Shown here: in pieces, positions 154 to 42,610 of the stretch | How the letters are laid out: each line of letters begins with the position of its first letter | Position numbering within the stretch: the stretch's first letter is position 1 | Source: a virus | Direction: 5' to 3' (one strand) | IMG/VR virus record: IMGVR_UViG_3300036835_000317 | Span: 1-42,610 of that record | DNA length: 42,610 nt | Made by a program: the position numbers and the translations under genes | The notes under the pieces: model-generated | The model's database searches: none | The model's input: only the letters and a program-made list of their open reading frames with translations | Told to the model about the DNA's origin: nothing

Positions 154-315
154 TCAGGGCAGGACGCCAAGAACCCGGCTGACGACGCCGAGGACGACCA
201 GTCCGACGACGACGACGGGATACCCGACCCGGAACACGACCGCCCGGCGGGTCGGCGGGACGTCCGCCACGTCCAGCCGGATCGGTCGACGCATCAGGCG
301 TTCGAAGTCCGTCAT
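154..315 (-). CDS. Small single-pass membrane protein, 53 aa
   Basis: Not recognised. The ATG overlaps the integrase stop codon in an ATGA junction, the same arrangement seen along the whole operon, which is the main reason to accept so short a frame. The N-terminal half is charged (MTDFERLMRRPIRL). Residues 31-53 are a Val/Leu/Gly-rich hydrophobic segment with a GYPVVVVGLVVLGVV core, so one membrane span near the C-terminus is likely. It is the last gene before the attP region. Its role is unknown. Confidence 0.55.
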   Translation of the reverse strand: MTDFERLMRRPIRLDVADVPPTRRAVVFRVGYPVVVVGLVVLGVVSRVLGVLP

Positions 316-1559
316 TTCGAGTGTCCCCCTTCCGCGGCCTGGTCGCCGGTCCGGCGGATCCCATTGGCGAACCCCTTCGTGAACGACGACGGCAGGAAGC
401 CGAAGTAGTGCTCCATCGTCGTCCGTTCAGTTTCGTGTCCAAGCTGCCGGCTGACCCACGGCAACCGGTTGTAGTCGAGCAGCAGATGGGTCGTGGCGAA
501 CGTGTCCCGCAGGTCGTGCGGCGTGTGGGCGGCCAACTTGTCGAGGATCGCTCGATCGTCCTTCGTGAGACGGCGCCCGTTCGCCTGCAGCTGTTTGGTG
601 ACCGGGTCGACCAGCGCGCGCTGCAGGACCCGGGCGAACACGCGCCGCATGTTGCCGTCCTGTCGGCGTGGGGCCCCGTGCGTGTTGGTGAAGACGTACG
701 AGACGTCCGTCCGCCCCCGTTTCATCAGGTCGATCCGTTGGTGTTTCCGCAGATCCTTCAGCTGCGCCACGACCAGATCCGACAGGTCGATCCAGCGGCG
801 CTGATGCGTCTTCGGGTCTTTGTCCTTGCCGTCCGACGGCGAATAGCTGCGCTCGATCCGGGCCCGCTTGCCCTCCAGGTCCACTTTCGCCCACCGCAGC
901 GCGGCGACTTCGCCGACCCGGCACCCGGTATCGTGGAGAAACTGGAAGTACTCGAACCACCCGCGTTCATGGGTTTCAACGTCCTTGAGAAAGGCGGCCG
1001 CCTGGTCGGCGGTGAACGGGTTCGGCTCCGGGTCGAGCGCGTCCTCGTTTTTGTGCCGCAGGAAGCGGCCCAACTTCAGACACGGGTTCGAGTCGATCAC
1101 TTCATCGAAGATCGCCTGTGTCATCGCCGAACTGAACACGCGGTGGACCCCTCGGCGCGTGCCCAACTTGACGCCCTTGTCGTACAGGTCCTGGTAAAAC
1201 TCGCGGACCTTGATCGGGCCCAGGTCCTTCAACGACGTGCCGCCCATCGTCGGCACAATGTGAATGCGGACCAGCTGTTCATACGATCGATACGTCGCCG
1301 CTTCCCGGTGCGGTTTGATCGTCGTCTCCAACCAACCGGTCAGATACCCGCCGACCGTGTTGCGCTTGGCAGGTGTGGTCGCCGGCGGGTCGGGCGTGGT
1401 GATCAGTCTGGTCGTGAATTCCGTTTTGAAGCGCTCGGCCTCCGCCTCGGTTCCGAAGGACTGCGCTTTTTTCTCCCCGTCCTGCGTCCGCCAGTAGGCG
1501 TACCAGGTCCCGCGGTCGGGGCGGAATTTGATGCGGACGTGCAGCTCGTAGTGTTTCAT
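312..1559 (-). CDS. int: Tyrosine-recombinase integrase, 415 aa
   Basis: Catalyses site-specific integration of the phage circle at the host attB. The N-terminus (about 1-60) looks like an arm-binding domain, about 65-165 like a SAM-like core-binding domain, and about 180-400 is the catalytic domain. Visible catalytic residues are Arg214 (TGCRVGEVAALRW), the HDLR box (His348, Arg351), LGH (His375) and the nucleophile Tyr385 in TMEHYFG. The ATG at 1559 has a GGAG ribosome site seven bases upstream and overlaps the stop of the HigA-like gene by 4 bp. A longer in-frame reading to 1868 only shadows that upstream gene. The attP core lies nearby on the circle, as expected. Confidence 0.96.
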   Translation of the reverse strand: MKHYELHVRIKFRPDRGTWYAYWRTQDGEKKAQSFGTEAEAERFKTEFTTRLITTPDPPATTPAKRNTVGGYLTGWLETTIKPHREAATYRSYEQLVRIHIVPTMGGTSLKDLGPIKVREFYQDLYDKGVKLGTRRGVHRVFSSAMTQAIFDEVIDSNPCLKLGRFLRHKNEDALDPEPNPFTADQAAAFLKDVETHERGWFEYFQFLHDTGCRVGEVAALRWAKVDLEGKRARIERSYSPSDGKDKDPKTHQRRWIDLSDLVVAQLKDLRKHQRIDLMKRGRTDVSYVFTNTHGAPRRQDGNMRRVFARVLQRALVDPVTKQLQANGRRLTKDDRAILDKLAAHTPHDLRDTFATTHLLLDYNRLPWVSRQLGHETERTTMEHYFGFLPSSFTKGFANGIRRTGDQAAEGGHSK

Positions 1560-1861
1560 TCGACGTCTCCAGAAAAGTGGGCAGGGGTCAGACGGCGAAC
1601 CTTGCGAAGCGCCGTAGTGTCGATCGTCGCCATGTCGTACGCCAACTGTTTTTTCGCCCAGGCATCGGCCGGCACACCGAGCGCCCGTCCCAGGCGGGCC
1701 GACATGGTGGGCGAGATGCCCTGGCGGCCGTTGATAATCGCGGACAACGTTTTGCGGGTCACGCCCAGACGTCTCGCCGCTTCCCGGACCGTGAGCTCCA
1801 GTGGGTCGAGCCAGTCGGCCCACAACAGTTCTCCCGGGTGCGGCACGTGATCTGTTGTCAC
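1556..1861 (-). CDS. HigA-family XRE antitoxin-like regulator, 101 aa
   Basis: DNA-binding protein of the HigA/VapI antitoxin family. It opens with HPGELLWADWLDPL, followed by an XRE helix-turn-helix (VREAARRLGVTRKTLSAIING) and the family stretch GISPTMSARLGRALG. HigA normally follows a HigB toxin, but the preceding gene (1858-2103) has no HigB-like features, so this copy is solitary. It starts at GTG 1861 with a GTGA overlap on the upstream stop and ends with an ATGA overlap on the integrase. That coupling suggests control of integration or of its own operon, probably through the inverted repeats at 2533-2588. Confidence 0.88.
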   Translation of the reverse strand: MTTDHVPHPGELLWADWLDPLELTVREAARRLGVTRKTLSAIINGRQGISPTMSARLGRALGVPADAWAKKQLAYDMATIDTTALRKVRRLTPAHFSGDVE

Positions 1862-2103
1862 TGGACACGCTCCCGGGTCAGATAGGCCGCAGCTTCCGCG
1901 CGGTCAATGATGGCCTCGGCTGACCGATCGGGTCCGTTCATCCAGATCACGCGCGCCTGGATGCAGTCGGGTCGGACCAGGGCCAGCTTCACGACAACCG
2001 ACACCAGCTCGAACTGCATCGGATTGACCACGGCGAACCCGGATCGCATCAGGACAGATCGGAACGTTCGTGCCTGACGTCGGGTGAAGGTGATGCAGAT
2101 CAT
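1858..2103 (-). CDS. Conserved hypothetical protein, 81 aa
   Basis: Not recognised. A basic start (MICITFTRRQARTFRSVL) leads into a mixed alpha/beta-looking sequence with alternating hydrophobics (FELVSVVVKLALV) and an Ala/Glu-rich helical end. The ATG at 2103 overlaps the upstream zinc-finger gene's stop by 4 bp, and its own stop overlaps the HigA-like GTG. It sits where a HigB toxin would be, but neither length nor motifs fit HigB. Confidence 0.7.
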   Translation of the reverse strand: MICITFTRRQARTFRSVLMRSGFAVVNPMQFELVSVVVKLALVRPDCIQARVIWMNGPDRSAEAIIDRAEAAAYLTRERVQ

Positions 2104-6267: not shown

Positions 6268-7668
6268 TCAATCTCCTTTGGGTTTCCCGCCGGCCGCCTG
6301 GCGGACGATCGCCGCGGTGTTGATCCCGAACAGCTTCGCGCGCCGTGGGAAGTCGCGATACGCCTGATGCCGGGTCGATTCGGCCAACAACAGATCCAGC
6401 GCCACGACCCGCACGCAGGCGTCGGCGGTCTTCGGCCGCGGCAGGTCGGCGACGACGGTGTCCAGGATGATCGGGATCAGCTTGGTGATGGGCGCCTTGG
6501 CGATCGCCGCGGTCAGTGCCTTGACCAGCTGAGCGCGCGCCCCGGTCCACGCTGCCCGCGCCGCCGCTTCCTTCTCTTCGCTGGCGTCCTTGTGAGCGGC
6601 CGCGCGCCCTTCGGCCCGTCCCTTGTCGACCGTCTGTTTGTGCCGCGTCTTCGCCAGGCGCTCTTTCGCGGCCCGTTCCTTTTTCCAGTGGACATCGCAG
6701 GCCGTGTCCAGGCAGACGTCGAAGGCCTGCCCGTAGTCCGGCCCGACCGCGACGACACCCAGGACGGCGTGTTCGCAGCGTTTCGATCCTTCGGTGCCGT
6801 CGGCGCGCTTCCAGTGATCGAACGTGTAGGTCTTGCCCTCGCGCGCGTCGGGTTGCACGAAGTTCAGATACGTGATCGCGGCGACGTCGCGCGCCGCCGT
6901 CTTCGCCTGGTCGACCTGGCGCGCGACCGTCCCGAAGTCCAGCGGTGCCGCCTGGGCGGCCTGCTTCGGGTCGAAGCGGACGTGTTGCGCGATCCAGGCG
7001 TCCAGCTCGCGGACCGAGATCGCTTTTCCCGTGGTCCCTTCTGTCAGCGGCAGACCGGTTTCGGGCACGAACAACGCGACGTCGAGCGCTCGCTGTTGAT
7101 CGCCGCGGCGCAGCTTCGACAACGCGATCGCGTGCCCAATCGTGATGCGACCGTGATCCAGGTGCTGTTGCAATGTCTTGATCAGGTCGAGCAGCTTCAG
7201 CCGTTCCCAGACGAACCGTTCCGTCATGCCGATGCGCGCCGCGATCGATCCCGCCGTGTGCCGGGTCGGGTCCTTCGCCATCAGCGTCTGGAACCCGCGC
7301 GCCTGGTCGAGCGGCGATAGGTCGGTCCGTTGCAGGTTTTCGATCAACGTGAATTCGAGGACCTGTTCATCGGTCAGCGGCCGCGATAGGACCGGCACGA
7401 CGGCAAGCTGCGCCAGCTGCGCCGCCTTGAACCGTCGTTCGCCCGCGACGATTTCCAGGATGCCGGCCTCGAGGGGACGCACCAACAGCGGGTTCAGGAT
7501 CCCGTGCGCCTTGACGCTGTCGGCCAGTTCCTTCAGCTTGTCGGGGTCGACCCGGGACCGCGGATTCAACCGGGACGGCCGCAAGTCCGCGAGCGGGACC
7601 AGTAAGGTCAGCGGCGCCGGCGCCGGATCGGCGGTCTCGGTGGCGAGGGATTCCGTACGGCGGGCCAT
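6268..7668 (-). CDS. ParB-like nuclease/CTPase-domain protein, 466 aa
   Basis: An N-terminal ParB/Spo0J domain spans about 22-115: LNPRSRVDPDKLKELADSVK, GERRF (box II, 76-80) and the IENLQRTDLSP box III (109-118). A KorB-like helix-turn-helix (about 135-200, IAARIGMTERFVWERLKLLD) follows, then a long lysine/alanine-rich region and a C-terminal domain. Plasmid ParB binds centromere-like sites and forms CTP-dependent clamps. No ParA partner is present, so partition is unlikely to be classical. Start ATG 7668 has AAGGA seven bases upstream. Confidence 0.88.
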   Translation of the reverse strand: MARRTESLATETADPAPAPLTLLVPLADLRPSRLNPRSRVDPDKLKELADSVKAHGILNPLLVRPLEAGILEIVAGERRFKAAQLAQLAVVPVLSRPLTDEQVLEFTLIENLQRTDLSPLDQARGFQTLMAKDPTRHTAGSIAARIGMTERFVWERLKLLDLIKTLQQHLDHGRITIGHAIALSKLRRGDQQRALDVALFVPETGLPLTEGTTGKAISVRELDAWIAQHVRFDPKQAAQAAPLDFGTVARQVDQAKTAARDVAAITYLNFVQPDAREGKTYTFDHWKRADGTEGSKRCEHAVLGVVAVGPDYGQAFDVCLDTACDVHWKKERAAKERLAKTRHKQTVDKGRAEGRAAAHKDASEEKEAAARAAWTGARAQLVKALTAAIAKAPITKLIPIILDTVVADLPRPKTADACVRVVALDLLLAESTRHQAYRDFPRRAKLFGINTAAIVRQAAGGKPKGD

Positions 7669-7688
7669 CAACACATCCTTTCGGTCGA

Positions 7689-36150: not shown

Positions 36151-36552
36151 ATGCCGGATCTCCGAAGCTCCATCACTGTCGGCCCGTTCTCGGTGTTCTT
36201 CACCAACGTGAACCGAGCGATGAAGCTACCCGGTCACAGCCATTTCGCCCTGGTCACCTTGACCTACGCCCACCAGACCGGGGGCCGCGGGTTCCCGGCA
36301 TTTGCCGACACCTACGCCGCGATTCAACAGCGCCTGGTGCAGGAAACCTCGGCGCCGTTCCATGACATGACCAACGAGGACGTCGCCGCCCACCTGTGGC
36401 GCGTCTTCGAGCCCTGGTCGGATCCGGCCATCGTGAAGTGGGGCGGCGTGTTCTCCTTGGCGCAGCTCGAGCTGGCGGTCCGCGGGGTGCCCGATCGGAT
36501 CGGTCACGCGGACGGCTTCACCCGGTACCGAATTGGACGCGCCGATGCCTGA
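36151..36552 (+). CDS. Unknown first gene of the deazaguanine cassette, 133 aa
   Basis: Not recognised. A strand-rich start (SSITVGPFSVFFTNVNRAMK), then HSHFALVTLTYAHQTGGRGF and a helical end (SLAQLELAVRGVPDRIG). ATG 36151 is chosen for an uninterrupted fold; ATG 36220 is possible. It overlaps queD by 8 bp and so is probably part of the modification operon. Confidence 0.55.
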   Translation: MPDLRSSITVGPFSVFFTNVNRAMKLPGHSHFALVTLTYAHQTGGRGFPAFADTYAAIQQRLVQETSAPFHDMTNEDVAAHLWRVFEPWSDPAIVKWGGVFSLAQLELAVRGVPDRIGHADGFTRYRIGRADA

Positions 36553-36922
36553 CGCCTGGTTCCTGTCGAAGACGTACCGGTTCGAAGCCGCCCATCATTT
36601 GCCGCGCCACGATGGGAAGTGCGCCCGCGTCCACGGGCACTCGTGGACGGCGACGATCGAGGTGGCGGGCCCATCGCTGCACTTCGCCGGTCCGAAGGTC
36701 GACATGCTGATGGATTACAACGAAATCGATGCCGTGGTCGAGCCGATTGTCGAGACGACGCTCGATCACTACGATCTGAACGTCAGCACGGGTCTGGTCA
36801 ACCCGACGTCGGAGGCGATCGCGCGGTGGCTGTTCCTGTTGCTCGCCGACCGTCTGCCCGGGTTGTCCGCGGTCACGATCAACGAAACGTGTACGTCGGC
36901 GTGTCGGTACCAGGGCCGCTGA
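36545..36922 (+). CDS. queD: 6-carboxytetrahydropterin synthase QueD, 125 aa
   Basis: Converts dihydroneopterin triphosphate to 6-carboxy-5,6,7,8-tetrahydropterin, the second step towards 7-deazaguanine. Zinc ligands are visible in FEAAHHL (His17) and HGHSW (His30, His32). The catalytic Cys26 lies in GKCARVHGH, as in QueD I. The conserved NPTSEAIARWLF follows, and Glu114 lies in NETCTSACRY. Length is normal. ATG 36545 overlaps the previous stop by 8 bp. Confidence 0.94.
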   Translation: MPDAWFLSKTYRFEAAHHLPRHDGKCARVHGHSWTATIEVAGPSLHFAGPKVDMLMDYNEIDAVVEPIVETTLDHYDLNVSTGLVNPTSEAIARWLFLLLADRLPGLSAVTINETCTSACRYQGR

Positions 36923-36939
36923 GGAAAGGGTCATCCCAC

Positions 36940-37071
36940 ATGGCGCAGCTGCACTCGCTGTTGATCATCGTCGCGTTCCTGCTGTTCGTCCTGGCGGCCG
37001 CCGGGGTGTCGGCGCGGATCAACCTGACGGCCGCGGGGCTGGCCGTGTGGGTCCTGTCGAACCTGGTCTGA
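36940..37071 (+). CDS. Small two-span membrane protein, 43 aa
   Basis: Two hydrophobic segments (LLIIVAFLLFVLAAAGV, then AAGLAVWVLSNLV) flank a short polar loop (SARINLT). Tiny proteins of this shape occur in many environmental phages. GAGGAAAGGG precedes the ATG, and the stop touches the queE ATG (TGATG). Its link to the pathway is unknown; holin-like function cannot be excluded. Confidence 0.65.
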   Translation: MAQLHSLLIIVAFLLFVLAAAGVSARINLTAAGLAVWVLSNLV

Positions 37072-37682
37072 TGCGCGTCACCGAGATCTTTCGTACGCTT
37101 CAAGGTGAAGGCATGCGCGCCGGCGAGCCCTCGGTCTTCGTCCGGTTCTCCGGCTGTTCGGCGAAGTACGCGTGTGCGGCCAGCGGGATCGCCTGTGATA
37201 CCGAATTCGAAAGCGGCGCCGAGTACACCGAGGACGGTCTGGCAGCCGCGATCCTGGAGGTGTCGGCCGGCATCTCGTGGATCGTCTGGACGGGCGGTGA
37301 GCCCGCGGACCAGCTGACGCCGTCGTTGATCGCGACGATGCGGCATCACGGGTATCGGCAACAGATCGAAACAAGCGGCGTCCGTCCGGTGCCCCCGGGG
37401 CTCGATTGGGTCACGGTCAGTCCGAAGGTCGCCGAACATATCCTGGCGCGCCACTTTCCCGTCCGCGACGACGGTGTCCACGTGGACGAACTGAAGTACA
37501 TCCGCCACGTCGGCCAGATGATCCCGGAGCCGTCGCTGACCGCGAAGGTGTTGTGTCTGTCGCCGCATTCGGACGGTGACCGGCTGAACCCGGCGAACCT
37601 GCGTCACTGTATCGAGCTGTGCCTGTCGCACCCGGAGTGGCGCCTGTCGATTCAACAACACAAGATCTGGAACGTACGGTGA
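37071..37682 (+). CDS. queE: 7-carboxy-7-deazaguanine synthase QueE, 203 aa
   Basis: Radical-SAM enzyme that rearranges 6-carboxytetrahydropterin to CDG. FRTLQGEGMRAGEPSVFVRF is the QueE start. The iron-sulphur cysteines are Cys29, Cys35 and Cys42 (GCSAKYAC, then CDTEF), spaced x5 and x6 rather than the usual x3 and x2. TGGEP (74-78) and ETSG (100-103) are the SAM-binding motifs. The unusual spacing leaves the fold intact but needs checking. The stop overlaps the next GTG. Confidence 0.92.
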   Translation: MRVTEIFRTLQGEGMRAGEPSVFVRFSGCSAKYACAASGIACDTEFESGAEYTEDGLAAAILEVSAGISWIVWTGGEPADQLTPSLIATMRHHGYRQQIETSGVRPVPPGLDWVTVSPKVAEHILARHFPVRDDGVHVDELKYIRHVGQMIPEPSLTAKVLCLSPHSDGDRLNPANLRHCIELCLSHPEWRLSIQQHKIWNVR

Positions 37683-38431
37683 CGCGCCGGCGGCGCCGAT
37701 CGCGGCCGACCACAACGGCGCGGGTCGCCACCGCCACGTCCCTGGCCGATCTCCAACCCAACACGAAGAACCCGCGGAAACCGTGGTCGGCCACGCAGCT
37801 GGAGGCCTTCCGTAAGAGTCTGCTGCAATTCGGCGATCTGGGCGGCATCGTCCGCAACCTGACGACGAACCAGCTAATCGGCGGTCACAAACGGATCGAC
37901 GCGTTCAAGGCGGGACAGGATGTTCAGATCGTCGCGCAACCCCAGGCGACCGACGCGCAGGGCACCGTGGCGCACGGCTACGTCGTCGTCGACGGCGCGC
38001 GCTTCTCGTATCGTGAAGTACGGTGGAGCCTCGAACAGGAAACGGCCGCCAACCTGGCCGCCAATCGATGGGCCGCGGATTGGGACTGGCAGCTGGTGTC
38101 CGAAGCCCTGCAGACGATCAACAACGATGAACTGCGATCGATCACGGGGTTCGCCGATCATGAGCTGAAGAACCTGCTGGCCGCGGACTGGTCGCCGCAA
38201 GCGAAGGGCGACCTGATGGGCGCCGACAACGGGACCGGCGATCACGCCGTCCACCTAAGCGCGACACAATACGAGCTGCTGACCCAGGCCAAGGCGCGGC
38301 TTGATCCAACGGCCGCGATCAGTGACGCCGGCGCCGTCGAGCTCCTGTGTCGCCGCTGTCTGAACGACACCGCCGCGATGACCGAACCGCCGTCGGCGCG
38401 CGTGAACCGATCCCGACGAGCCCGCGCATGA
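37679..38431 (+). CDS. ParB-like protein coupled to DpdA, 250 aa
   Basis: Basic N-terminal tail, then a ParB/Srx-type domain (SLADLQPNTKNPRKPW, GGHKRIDAF at 68-76) and a helical region rich in AANLAANRWAADWDWQLV, typical of ParB-like proteins found beside DNA-modifying enzymes in phages. It lacks the KorB-like helix-turn-helix of the larger ParB-like protein (6268-7668). GTG 37679 overlaps the queE stop and its own stop overlaps the dpdA ATG, so it may be a cofactor that brings DpdA to DNA. Confidence 0.85.
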   Translation: MTRRRRRSRPTTTARVATATSLADLQPNTKNPRKPWSATQLEAFRKSLLQFGDLGGIVRNLTTNQLIGGHKRIDAFKAGQDVQIVAQPQATDAQGTVAHGYVVVDGARFSYREVRWSLEQETAANLAANRWAADWDWQLVSEALQTINNDELRSITGFADHELKNLLAADWSPQAKGDLMGADNGTGDHAVHLSATQYELLTQAKARLDPTAAISDAGAVELLCRRCLNDTAAMTEPPSARVNRSRRARA

Positions 38432-39306
38432 CGACGGTCCGCCTGGCGTTCGGCAATCGAAAACAGGAACAACACGCGGTGACCGGGCAACGGTTGCCGG
38501 CGCTCCTGATTTCGTATGCGTACCTGGCGCCGTTCCTGAAACATCGGCATCTGTACCAGTACCGCGACTGGTCGATGGACTCGGGCGCGTTCACGGCGGC
38601 GAACAGCGGGAAAGTGATCGGTCTGGCCGAGTACATCACGGTCTGCCATCAGCTGATGAAGACGGATCCGACCCTGGTCGAGATTTTTTCGCTCGACGTG
38701 ATCGGCGATCACAAGGCCAGCGCGAAGAACACGGCCGCCATGTGGAAAGAAGGGATCCCGGCGATCCCGTGTTTCCATTACGGTGAACCCGAGGGCGCGT
38801 TGCTCGAGATGGCCGCCGCGTACCCGAAGATCGCGATCGGCGGGGTCGCCTACAAACGGGGGACGGCGAAAACGCACTGGGCGGAACAAGTCTTCGCCCG
38901 CGTCTGGCCGAAACGGGTCCACGGGTTCGCGTTCGCCAGCGAGCGCGACGTGATGGCGCTTCCGTTCCACTCGGTGGACGCCAGCTCGTGGGAGATCGGC
39001 GCGTGCGGGTTCGGCAACTGGAAACAGTTCGGTCACATGGTCGTCCGGGGATCCGGTCAGGACCTGCGCGGCGAAGTGAACGTGTTCCTGGAGCTCGAAG
39101 AACGCGCGCGAATCAAGTGGCGCCGGCAGATGGCGCAGCTGGAAGCGACACGCGATGCGCCGAAAGTCCGGTTGTCCGTGGGCCGCGGCCGGACGATGCC
39201 GACGTCGGCGACGGGCGAAGCGCCGGCGGTCCGCCTGGCGGTCATCACGGGACTGCTTGGCCGGGGCGAGCTCGGGCGCGGGACCCGACGGGGGACCAAG
39301 CGATGA
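38428..39306 (+). CDS. dpdA: DpdA, 7-deazaguanine DNA transglycosylase, 292 aa
   Basis: TGT-superfamily protein that swaps guanine in DNA for a 7-deazaguanine. Asp51 in MDSGAFTA equals the general-base Asp of tRNA-guanine transglycosylases. SLDVIGD (88-94), IGGVAYKRG (137-145) and HSVDASSW (181-188, likely nucleophile Asp184) complete the active site. The zinc cysteines of tRNA enzymes are missing and the length is short, as in phage DpdA. Cotranscribed with queD, queE and a ParB-like gene. Confidence 0.9.
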   Translation: MTTVRLAFGNRKQEQHAVTGQRLPALLISYAYLAPFLKHRHLYQYRDWSMDSGAFTAANSGKVIGLAEYITVCHQLMKTDPTLVEIFSLDVIGDHKASAKNTAAMWKEGIPAIPCFHYGEPEGALLEMAAAYPKIAIGGVAYKRGTAKTHWAEQVFARVWPKRVHGFAFASERDVMALPFHSVDASSWEIGACGFGNWKQFGHMVVRGSGQDLRGEVNVFLELEERARIKWRRQMAQLEATRDAPKVRLSVGRGRTMPTSATGEAPAVRLAVITGLLGRGELGRGTRRGTKR

Positions 39307-39464
39307 AGCTGTGCGCGATCCTGGTCGCCACGTTCGTCTCGTGCGGGTGCGCGCTGCCGTTGAGGCGCACATGCGCGGACGGCTGGCCAATCAAGGTCCT
39401 GATCGATCAAGCCTGCACGGGTGGCATCTGCGGCTACACGTGTGCGCCGGATCGGTGGCGGTGA
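39303..39464 (+). CDS. Small Cys-rich lipoprotein-like peptide, 53 aa
   Basis: MKLCAILVATFVSCGCALPL has a short hydrophobic stretch ending in VSCGC, an imperfect lipobox. The mature part has further cysteines (RRTCADGW, ACTGGICGYTC) that could form disulphides. Its ATG overlaps the dpdA stop. A surface or periplasmic role, for example superinfection exclusion, is possible but unproven. Confidence 0.6.
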   Translation: MKLCAILVATFVSCGCALPLRRTCADGWPIKVLIDQACTGGICGYTCAPDRWR

Positions 39465-39491
39465 TGGTCCGTTGAAGCCGAGGCACCGACG

Positions 39492-40043
39492 ATGAATCAG
39501 AACCCCGTGTACCTGGTCGACCAGCTGCTGCGCGCATTCGGTCATGACACCGGCCGCGAAGGTCTGTTGAAAACGCCCGAACGGGTCGCGCGGTTCCTGA
39601 AGGAATTCATCGGCGACCGTCCGTTGTGTCCGCTGACGACGTTCGATGCCGAGGGCACCGACGAAATGATTGTTGTCCGCGCGGTCCCGTTCTACTCGCT
39701 GTGCGAACATCACCTGATCCCGTTCTTCGGGACCGCGTCAGTCGGCTACGTGCCGTCCGATCGGATCGTCGGCCTGTCGAAGATTCCGCGGGTGATTCAA
39801 CACCACGCGCGTGGCCTGCAAAATCAGGAACGACTGGCCCAGGCGATCGCCCGGTGCCTGGACGACGGGTTGAAACCGAAAGGCGTCGGCGTGATCCTGC
39901 ACGCGCGCCACTTGTGTATGGAAATGCGCGGGGTGGCGATCGCCGGCGCCGTGACGACGACGTCCGCGCTCCGCGGATGTTTCCTCGAGGATGCCCGCGC
40001 CCGCCGCGAATTCCTGGATTTCGACGCGCGATCCGCCGACTAG
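39492..40043 (+). CDS. folE: GTP cyclohydrolase I FolE, 183 aa
   Basis: First enzyme of the pathway: GTP to dihydroneopterin triphosphate. Zinc ligands Cys71 and His74 lie in SLCEHHLIPFFG, and Cys142 in RHLCMEMRG. GLSKIPR (94-100) and QERLAQAIA are family blocks. It is shorter at the N-terminus than the E. coli enzyme, as in many phages. It follows dpdA after a short gap. The product feeds QueD. Confidence 0.95.
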   Translation: MNQNPVYLVDQLLRAFGHDTGREGLLKTPERVARFLKEFIGDRPLCPLTTFDAEGTDEMIVVRAVPFYSLCEHHLIPFFGTASVGYVPSDRIVGLSKIPRVIQHHARGLQNQERLAQAIARCLDDGLKPKGVGVILHARHLCMEMRGVAIAGAVTTTSALRGCFLEDARARREFLDFDARSAD

Positions 40044-42462: not shown

Positions 42463-42507
42463 TGGAGCCGGCGCGCGGGCTTGAACCGCGGACCTGCTGA
42501 TTACGAA
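42463..42507 (-). other. attP core: 3' end of tRNA-Thr(CGU)
   Basis: Read on the minus strand, the sequence gives the anticodon loop TTCGTAA (anticodon CGT at 42503-42505), the 3' half of the anticodon stem, the T arm CGCGG-TTCAAGC-CCGCG (perfect 5-bp stem), the acceptor strand CGCCGGC and TCCA ending at 42463. The 5' half of the tRNA is missing, so it is not a gene but the identity block that restores the host tRNA after integration. The integrase gene lies some 440 bp away across the circle junction. Confidence 0.88.
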
Positions 42508-42610
42508 AATTGGAAAAAGCTGAAGATCTTCGAAGGTTTCCACGGTTGCCGGCAACCACGGGTTCCGCGGCATGCCCAGGCATGTCCACGATCGCCGCGG
42601 TTGCCCGAGT
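42484..42610. repeat. Terminal direct repeat, right copy
   Basis: Identical to 1-127. See the left copy: the two ends most likely represent one locus on a circular genome, and features in 1-127 are duplicated here only by the assembly. Confidence 0.9.

Follow-up and report, generated by a model that had tools for sequence, protein, structure and literature searches.

What becomes of 7-carboxy-7-deazaguanine (CDG) in a phage that carries the genes to make it but lacks QueC? The question is raised by an IMG/VR virus record (IMGVR_UViG_3300036835_000317; 42,610 bases), analysed here at its full length and referred to as the window. Within 36,151–40,043 it encodes, all on the + strand, FolE, QueD and QueE, which would convert GTP to CDG by the established pathway, and a DpdA-like transglycosylase. 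QueC, which amidates CDG to preQ0 with ATP and is the usual choice in phages that modify their DNA in this way, is missing. A first-pass annotation recognised this region as a QueC-less 7-deazaguanine cassette and offered two outcomes, CDG itself as the DNA base or its conversion to preQ0 by a host QueC. The description of the cassette holds, but the list of outcomes is incomplete: we favour a third, in which a small uncharacterised protein of the same operon, here called up36, takes QueC’s role. We consider it probable that the window holds an operon for putting a 7-deazaguanine into phage DNA, with up36 standing in for QueC and acting on CDG. A wider proposal is put forward tentatively: that up36 founds a new T-fold family converting CDG to a phage DNA base (7-deazaguanine or an undescribed one), and that it and QueC have traded places on several occasions in phages that infect actinomycetes and other bacteria.

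Matches in Pfam, NCBIfam and PHROG confirmed the four named genes (Table 1), to which two that the annotation omitted must be added: a ParB-like gene and up36, whose start codon lies exactly at 36,151, the position at which the annotated region began. The genes are coupled: up36 and queD overlap by 8 bases, queE and parB meet at GTGA, and parB with dpdA, and dpdA with the next open reading frame (ORF), at ATGA. The cassette frames are intact and conserved, and their third-position GC content is high and of coding type.

The QueC/Gat-QueC family PF06508 had no match anywhere in the closed genome and was detected in 12 of 14 control genomes; QueF (PF14489) and an ArcS-type domain (PF17884) gave no match in the whole window, in agreement with the absences first reported. 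An incomplete contig concealing QueC is ruled out: the window is the entire record and bases 1–127 recur at its end, so the absence does not stem from a missing end. Nor is QueC encoded elsewhere in any of 26 virus records, 20 with up36 and six QueC-less ones without it. By gene content the window lies outside the preQ0 type of the CAjan/Rosebush group, phage-encoded QueC not being found, and outside the dG+/dPreQ1 type, as Gat-QueC, QueF/QueF-L and ArcS were not found. It has the composition of the Bipper type, with ParB-like protein, DpdA, up36, QueD, QueE and FolE together and QueC not found.

To collect relatives, IMG/VR was scanned from the terminase and from the cassette genes. A profile scan placed up36 in 22 IMG/VR loci, 10 actinomycete genomes (Streptomyces, Gordonia, Actinocrispum, Kibdelosporangium, Spongiactinospora and Nonomuraea) and one Streptomyces plasmid, some of the genome loci being identical to IMG/VR loci; among annotated phages it occurs in seven records only, five of them mycobacteriophages, including Bipper. 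Given sufficient flanks, up36 is always accompanied by FolE, QueD and QueE and never by QueC (one locus, L183, is truncated immediately ahead of the gene). In phage-type loci it adjoins or nearly adjoins DpdA, mostly between dpdA and queD in the operon. Among 76 distinct cassettes with QueE, DpdA and FolE, 37 carry QueC, 21 carry up36, 18 carry neither and none carries both, a mutual exclusion with a Fisher p of 2.6e-8 when kinship among the rows is ignored. Gains or losses of up36 require at least five changes on the QueE tree and four on the DpdA tree.

The plasmid cluster, from Streptomyces chartreusis (L203; NZ_CP108842.1, 536916–551278), encodes FolE, QueE, QueD, up36 and NUDIX, HAD and MFS proteins; QueC was undetected there, and so was DpdA by profile. 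A neighbouring ORF (L203 2132–3001) looks like a tRNA-guanine transglycosylase (TGT) by eye but was matched neither by Pfam nor by the DpdA profile. Neither a tubercidin-like reading of this cluster nor one based on a transglycosylase is claimed.

The closest comparison comes from sister phages in IMG/VR, in which the gene order is QueD-QueE-ParB-DpdA-(QueC)-FolE. In L028 and L073, which lack up36, QueC lies between dpdA and folE, whereas L009, like the window, has up36 and no QueC. The two kinds share FolE, QueD, QueE and DpdA and the order QueD-QueE-ParB-DpdA-...-FolE, at 54–72% identity to the window. A starred clade (100/99) of the QueE tree unites L009 and the window with L028 and L073; the nearest relatives of the window QueE are two QueC-bearing phages. 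The lipoprotein-like ORF that occupies QueC’s interval in the window was considered as a QueC substitute and dropped: it has relatives in the cassette-free phage loci L015 and L016, which were retrieved via the terminase, so it probably lies outside the pathway.

The up36 protein matched no Pfam family and no PHROG family. Residues invariant in an alignment of 22 members include N19, N21, H29, H31, D72, T74-N75-E76, D115 and G118-H119. An AlphaFold2 model built from 22 sequences (pLDDT 89.8, pTM 0.84) has a monomer topology of β-β-α-α-β-β, and nearly all of its top matches in the PDB are T-fold proteins: PTPS/QueD, FolB/dihydroneopterin aldolase, epimerase and QueF-like. The best is PTPS/QueD (probability 1.00, E = 3.5e-3, TM about 0.5–0.6), and PTPS/QueD proteins also head the list of viral structure matches. 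From the model we predict with confidence that up36 has a T-fold, as do QueD, FolE and QueF; enzymes with this fold bind pterins and purines. Sequence homology between up36 and QueD was considered and rejected: a signal obtained with two sequences (hhalign E = 0.0014) was lost in deep alignments, in which QueC, used as a control, gave the better score (E = 0.0021). The QueF Pfam family matched weakly, at E = 0.05 at best and in two of the 22 members. No ATP-pyrophosphatase motif is present in up36, which makes a repeat of QueC’s ATP-driven amidation unlikely.

We therefore suggest that up36 would act on CDG at the point where QueC would otherwise do so. With no ATP motif and a predicted pterin- or purine-binding fold, an ATP-free conversion of CDG is our leading guess, and its simplest and likeliest form would be removal of the carboxylate as CO2 to give 7-deazaguanine; another change, or delivery of CDG, are the alternatives. 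The ParB-like protein and DpdA would then put the product in place of guanine in the phage DNA. If up36 acts in QueC’s place, the inserted base would be CDG or a compound derived from it, perhaps 7-deazaguanine, and not host-made preQ0. The modified base presumably blocks restriction, for which the CAjan work provides the basis (PMC6884629).

Several points weigh against this proposal. The fold matches of up36 are distant, as the E value and TM range above show, and deep profiles reveal no reliable similarity of up36 to QueD or to the QueD-like protein that other cassettes have in this slot. Corrected for kinship, the exclusion test has five independent pairs, of which three or four go in opposite directions, as expected, and none in the same one (sign test p = 0.125); with only four or five independent switches such a test cannot reach significance, though its direction is consistent. 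The window QueE has an atypical cluster motif that departs from Cx3Cx2C, though it is conserved. In the cassette of L096, QueC is absent and no evident candidate fills its place, so that CDG alone may suffice for some cassettes. Finally, a protein of this fold might also bind QueD as a partner, or inhibit restriction.

The rival that survives best, although we find it doubtful, is that CDG itself is the DNA base, inserted by DpdA, with up36 an accessory such as a CDG carrier or a partner of QueD or DpdA. FolE, QueD and QueE stop at CDG and QueC was not found, and L096 fits the same pattern. Hutinet et al. (2019; PMC6884629) singled out Bipper as lacking only QueC and suggested CDG as its DNA base, and assays in the field already quantify dCDG (PMC8306585). 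This reading by itself leaves unexplained a conserved protein of predicted T-fold that is excluded from QueC cassettes. A DpdA loop reading GGVAYKRG in the window and L009 and GGAVGL in the QueC-bearing sisters, a tempting basic patch, was considered as a pocket signature for CDG and dropped, since across about 80 DpdAs it follows neither QueC nor up36; no pocket signature separates up36 cassettes from QueC cassettes.

That a host QueC turns the phage CDG into preQ0, which DpdA would then insert as in CAjan or Rosebush, is improbable. A real, full QueC is present in two of the 10 actinomycete genomes that carry up36, and the sister phages bring their own QueC. Yet full-length QueC is missing from the other eight (only partial matches of 21–26 bits in long frames were seen), and tRNA-TGT was not found in nine of the 10. 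The queuosine (Q) genes are all missing from Mycobacteria (PMC6884629), but the cassette persists in Bipper and Typha, which grow on one such host, M. smegmatis mc2 155. With QueC absent from most carriers and the pathway absent from Mycobacteria, host-made preQ0 cannot be the general answer, and it would leave the exclusion of up36 and QueC unexplained. The host option of the first-pass annotation is thus disfavoured for the up36 family as a whole, though it may still apply to the window taken alone.

There is similarly little to recommend the idea that QueC is encoded by a very divergent gene that escaped detection, or that up36 is a QueC analogue also making preQ0. Mutual exclusion is what isofunctional genes would show, but PF06508, null in the closed genome, does find its targets in most controls, and up36 is predicted to have a T-fold rather than the PP-loop ATPase fold and lacks the ATP motif. 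It is very unlikely that the cassette leaves the phage DNA unmodified, whether because it is inactive or because it feeds the tRNA or pterin metabolism of the host: the QueE cluster motif does deviate from Cx3Cx2C, but it is conserved over many distinct phage cassettes, the frames are intact and conserved, a DpdA-type transglycosylase is linked to a ParB-like neighbour in most cassettes, and nine of 10 carrier genomes have no detected tRNA-TGT to use a Q precursor.

Other QueC-less cassettes appear to fill the same slot differently. Of the 18 with neither QueC nor up36, 11 have a second, QueD-like protein and two have a protein resembling an S-adenosylmethionine (SAM)-dependent methyltransferase; across the 76 cassettes neither of these co-occurs with QueC or up36. 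A profile comparison (E = 5e-10) clearly marks the QueD-like slot protein as a paralogue of QueD; being small and QueD-like, it probably has a T-fold as well. This candidate for DpdL, a reported CDG decarboxylase, was not found in the window. It is encoded at L129, L135, L138, L139, L141, L146, L148, L151, L152, L153 and L155, and gp040 of Cellulophaga phage phiST is of the same kind. A membrane protein resembling YhhQ was additionally noticed by eye in L153 and L155. The methyltransferase-like ORFs lie in QueC’s place between dpdA and queD (L091:1186–2001 and L097:6663–7532), with another at L127:2268–2963; such a protein could methylate CDG or its carboxylate. By eye, a nitrilase/amidase-like ORF directly follows dpdA in the QueC-less cassette L105 (6378–7784), and an ORF resembling a Vsr very-short-patch endonuclease lies between folE and dpdA in L122 (6759–7223).

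Table 1 Features of the window. Strand and positions refer to the 42,610-base record.
Feature	Position	Strand	Evidence
Tyrosine integrase	312..1868	-	Pfam Phage_integrase 4e-12; PHROG 1 1.7e-51
up36, uncharacterised 133-aa protein, predicted T-fold	36151..36552	+	22-member alignment; AlphaFold2 model
QueD, 6-carboxytetrahydropterin synthase	36545..36922	+	Pfam PTPS 1.4e-29; TIGR03367 1.6e-23
Small putative membrane ORF, 43 aa	36940..37071	+	Sequence; stop overlaps queE start
QueE, CDG synthase	37071..37682	+	TIGR04508 2.5e-37 (below the family’s curated cut-off); PHROG QueE 9e-24
ParB-like protein, probable DpdA partner	37679..38431	+	PHROG 620 2e-21; ParB of PDB 6sdk E = 2e-4
DpdA-like guanine transglycosylase, 292 aa	38428..39306	+	PHROG 887 6.7e-28
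Small lipoprotein-like ORF, 53 aa	39303..39464	+	Sequence; position is that of QueC in sister cassettes
FolE, GTP cyclohydrolase I	39492..40043	+	Pfam 2e-58; zinc-site motifs CEHH, HLCM
127-bp repeat of bases 1–127	42484..42610	.	Overlap of circularly closed assembly

The remaining cassette enzymes are presumed active. QueD, as read from its sequence, retains the C-x3-HGH and DH..LN motifs. QueE aligns with the solved QueE 4njg (E = 2e-28); its cluster motif is an unusual Cx5Cx6C (CSAKHACATSGVVCDT type), with the same spacing in about 40 phage loci, in cassettes both with and without QueC, and an inactive QueE was dropped as an explanation because many phage QueE proteins keep this spacing, those of QueC-bearing cassettes among them. 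A Cx3Cx13C spacing occurs in the QueE of five loci. The best PDB match of the DpdA model is the tRNA-guanine transglycosylase 4gh3 (probability 0.99), pointing to a TGT-type barrel, and aspartates D51, D90 and D184 are invariant in 28 relatives, so that the active-site loss named at the outset as grounds for doubting the cassette was not seen. A single-protein DpdA scan of IMG/VR returned no relatives; an alignment-based scan did retrieve them. Tandem pairs of DpdA-like frames occur in the cassettes of L097, L173, L174, L175, L192 and L197. In the window and in most related cassettes the ParB-like gene immediately precedes dpdA, and by analogy of position with bacterial DpdB its product is probably a DpdA partner. 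The 43-residue ORF has one similar counterpart, close to the terminase of the relative L008.

With terminase, portal, integrase and repressor-like genes present, the window is the genome of a temperate tailed phage. Adjoining the integrase is half a tRNA gene (3′ end; 42463–42507, - strand; anticodon loop TTCGTAA, probably Thr-CGT), a likely attachment site and potential pointer to the host. A second ParB-type protein, with ParB_N and helix-turn-helix domains, is encoded far from the cassette at 6268–7674.

QueC-less phage cassettes have been known since 2019, when Bipper was described, and up36 adds a conserved candidate enzyme for QueC’s place; its presence in Bipper and Typha makes the identity of the DNA base in QueC-less phages directly testable by an experiment on a single gene. 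Should up36 prove to act on CDG, the reaction would be new for the T-fold superfamily, and the CDG-acting enzyme would be an exchangeable slot (QueC, QueD-like protein, up36 or methyltransferase) that sets the phage base. In the literature searched we found no account of a gene replacing QueC in such cassettes, and no paper on a T-fold protein of the up36 kind within them.

Among known systems, Bipper and Typha come closest. They have the same six parts as the window and no QueC, with an up36 homologue of 43% identity, and in Bipper as in the window the cassette adjoins the terminase. The gene order differs, running ParB-like or DNA-binding gene, DpdA, up36, QueD, QueE, FolE and then terminase, and their DpdA and QueE fall in subfamilies distinct from those of the window; the QueE of Bipper has Cx3Cx2C in place of Cx5Cx6C, and Bipper, with a genome of 77.8 kb, infects Mycobacterium. 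Cellulophaga phage phiST and its relatives share with the window the lack of a detected QueC and a small protein nearby, but theirs is the QueD paralogue, with no detectable sequence relation to the window’s up36. Cui et al. (2023) reportedly detected both dCDG and 7-deazaguanine in the DNA of phages and proposed a CDG decarboxylase, DpdL. This enzyme may be the slot protein of QueD type, to judge by the occurrence of the latter in phiST. If so, up36 would be a second, sequence-unrelated solution; if DpdL is up36, the window cassette would be a new member of the DpdL system. The bacterial Dpd system likewise pairs its transglycosylase with a ParB-like protein, DpdA with DpdB (PMC12839542, PMC6392294), but it uses preQ0 and adds DpdC and restriction genes, none of which was found beside the window cassette. 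In the tubercidin pathway, TubA–C make CDG from a cluster without QueC (PMC6112128). There too the branch point is CDG rather than preQ0 and the carboxylate is removed later, although by a UbiD-type decarboxylase, TubF, and the product is an antibiotic instead of DNA.

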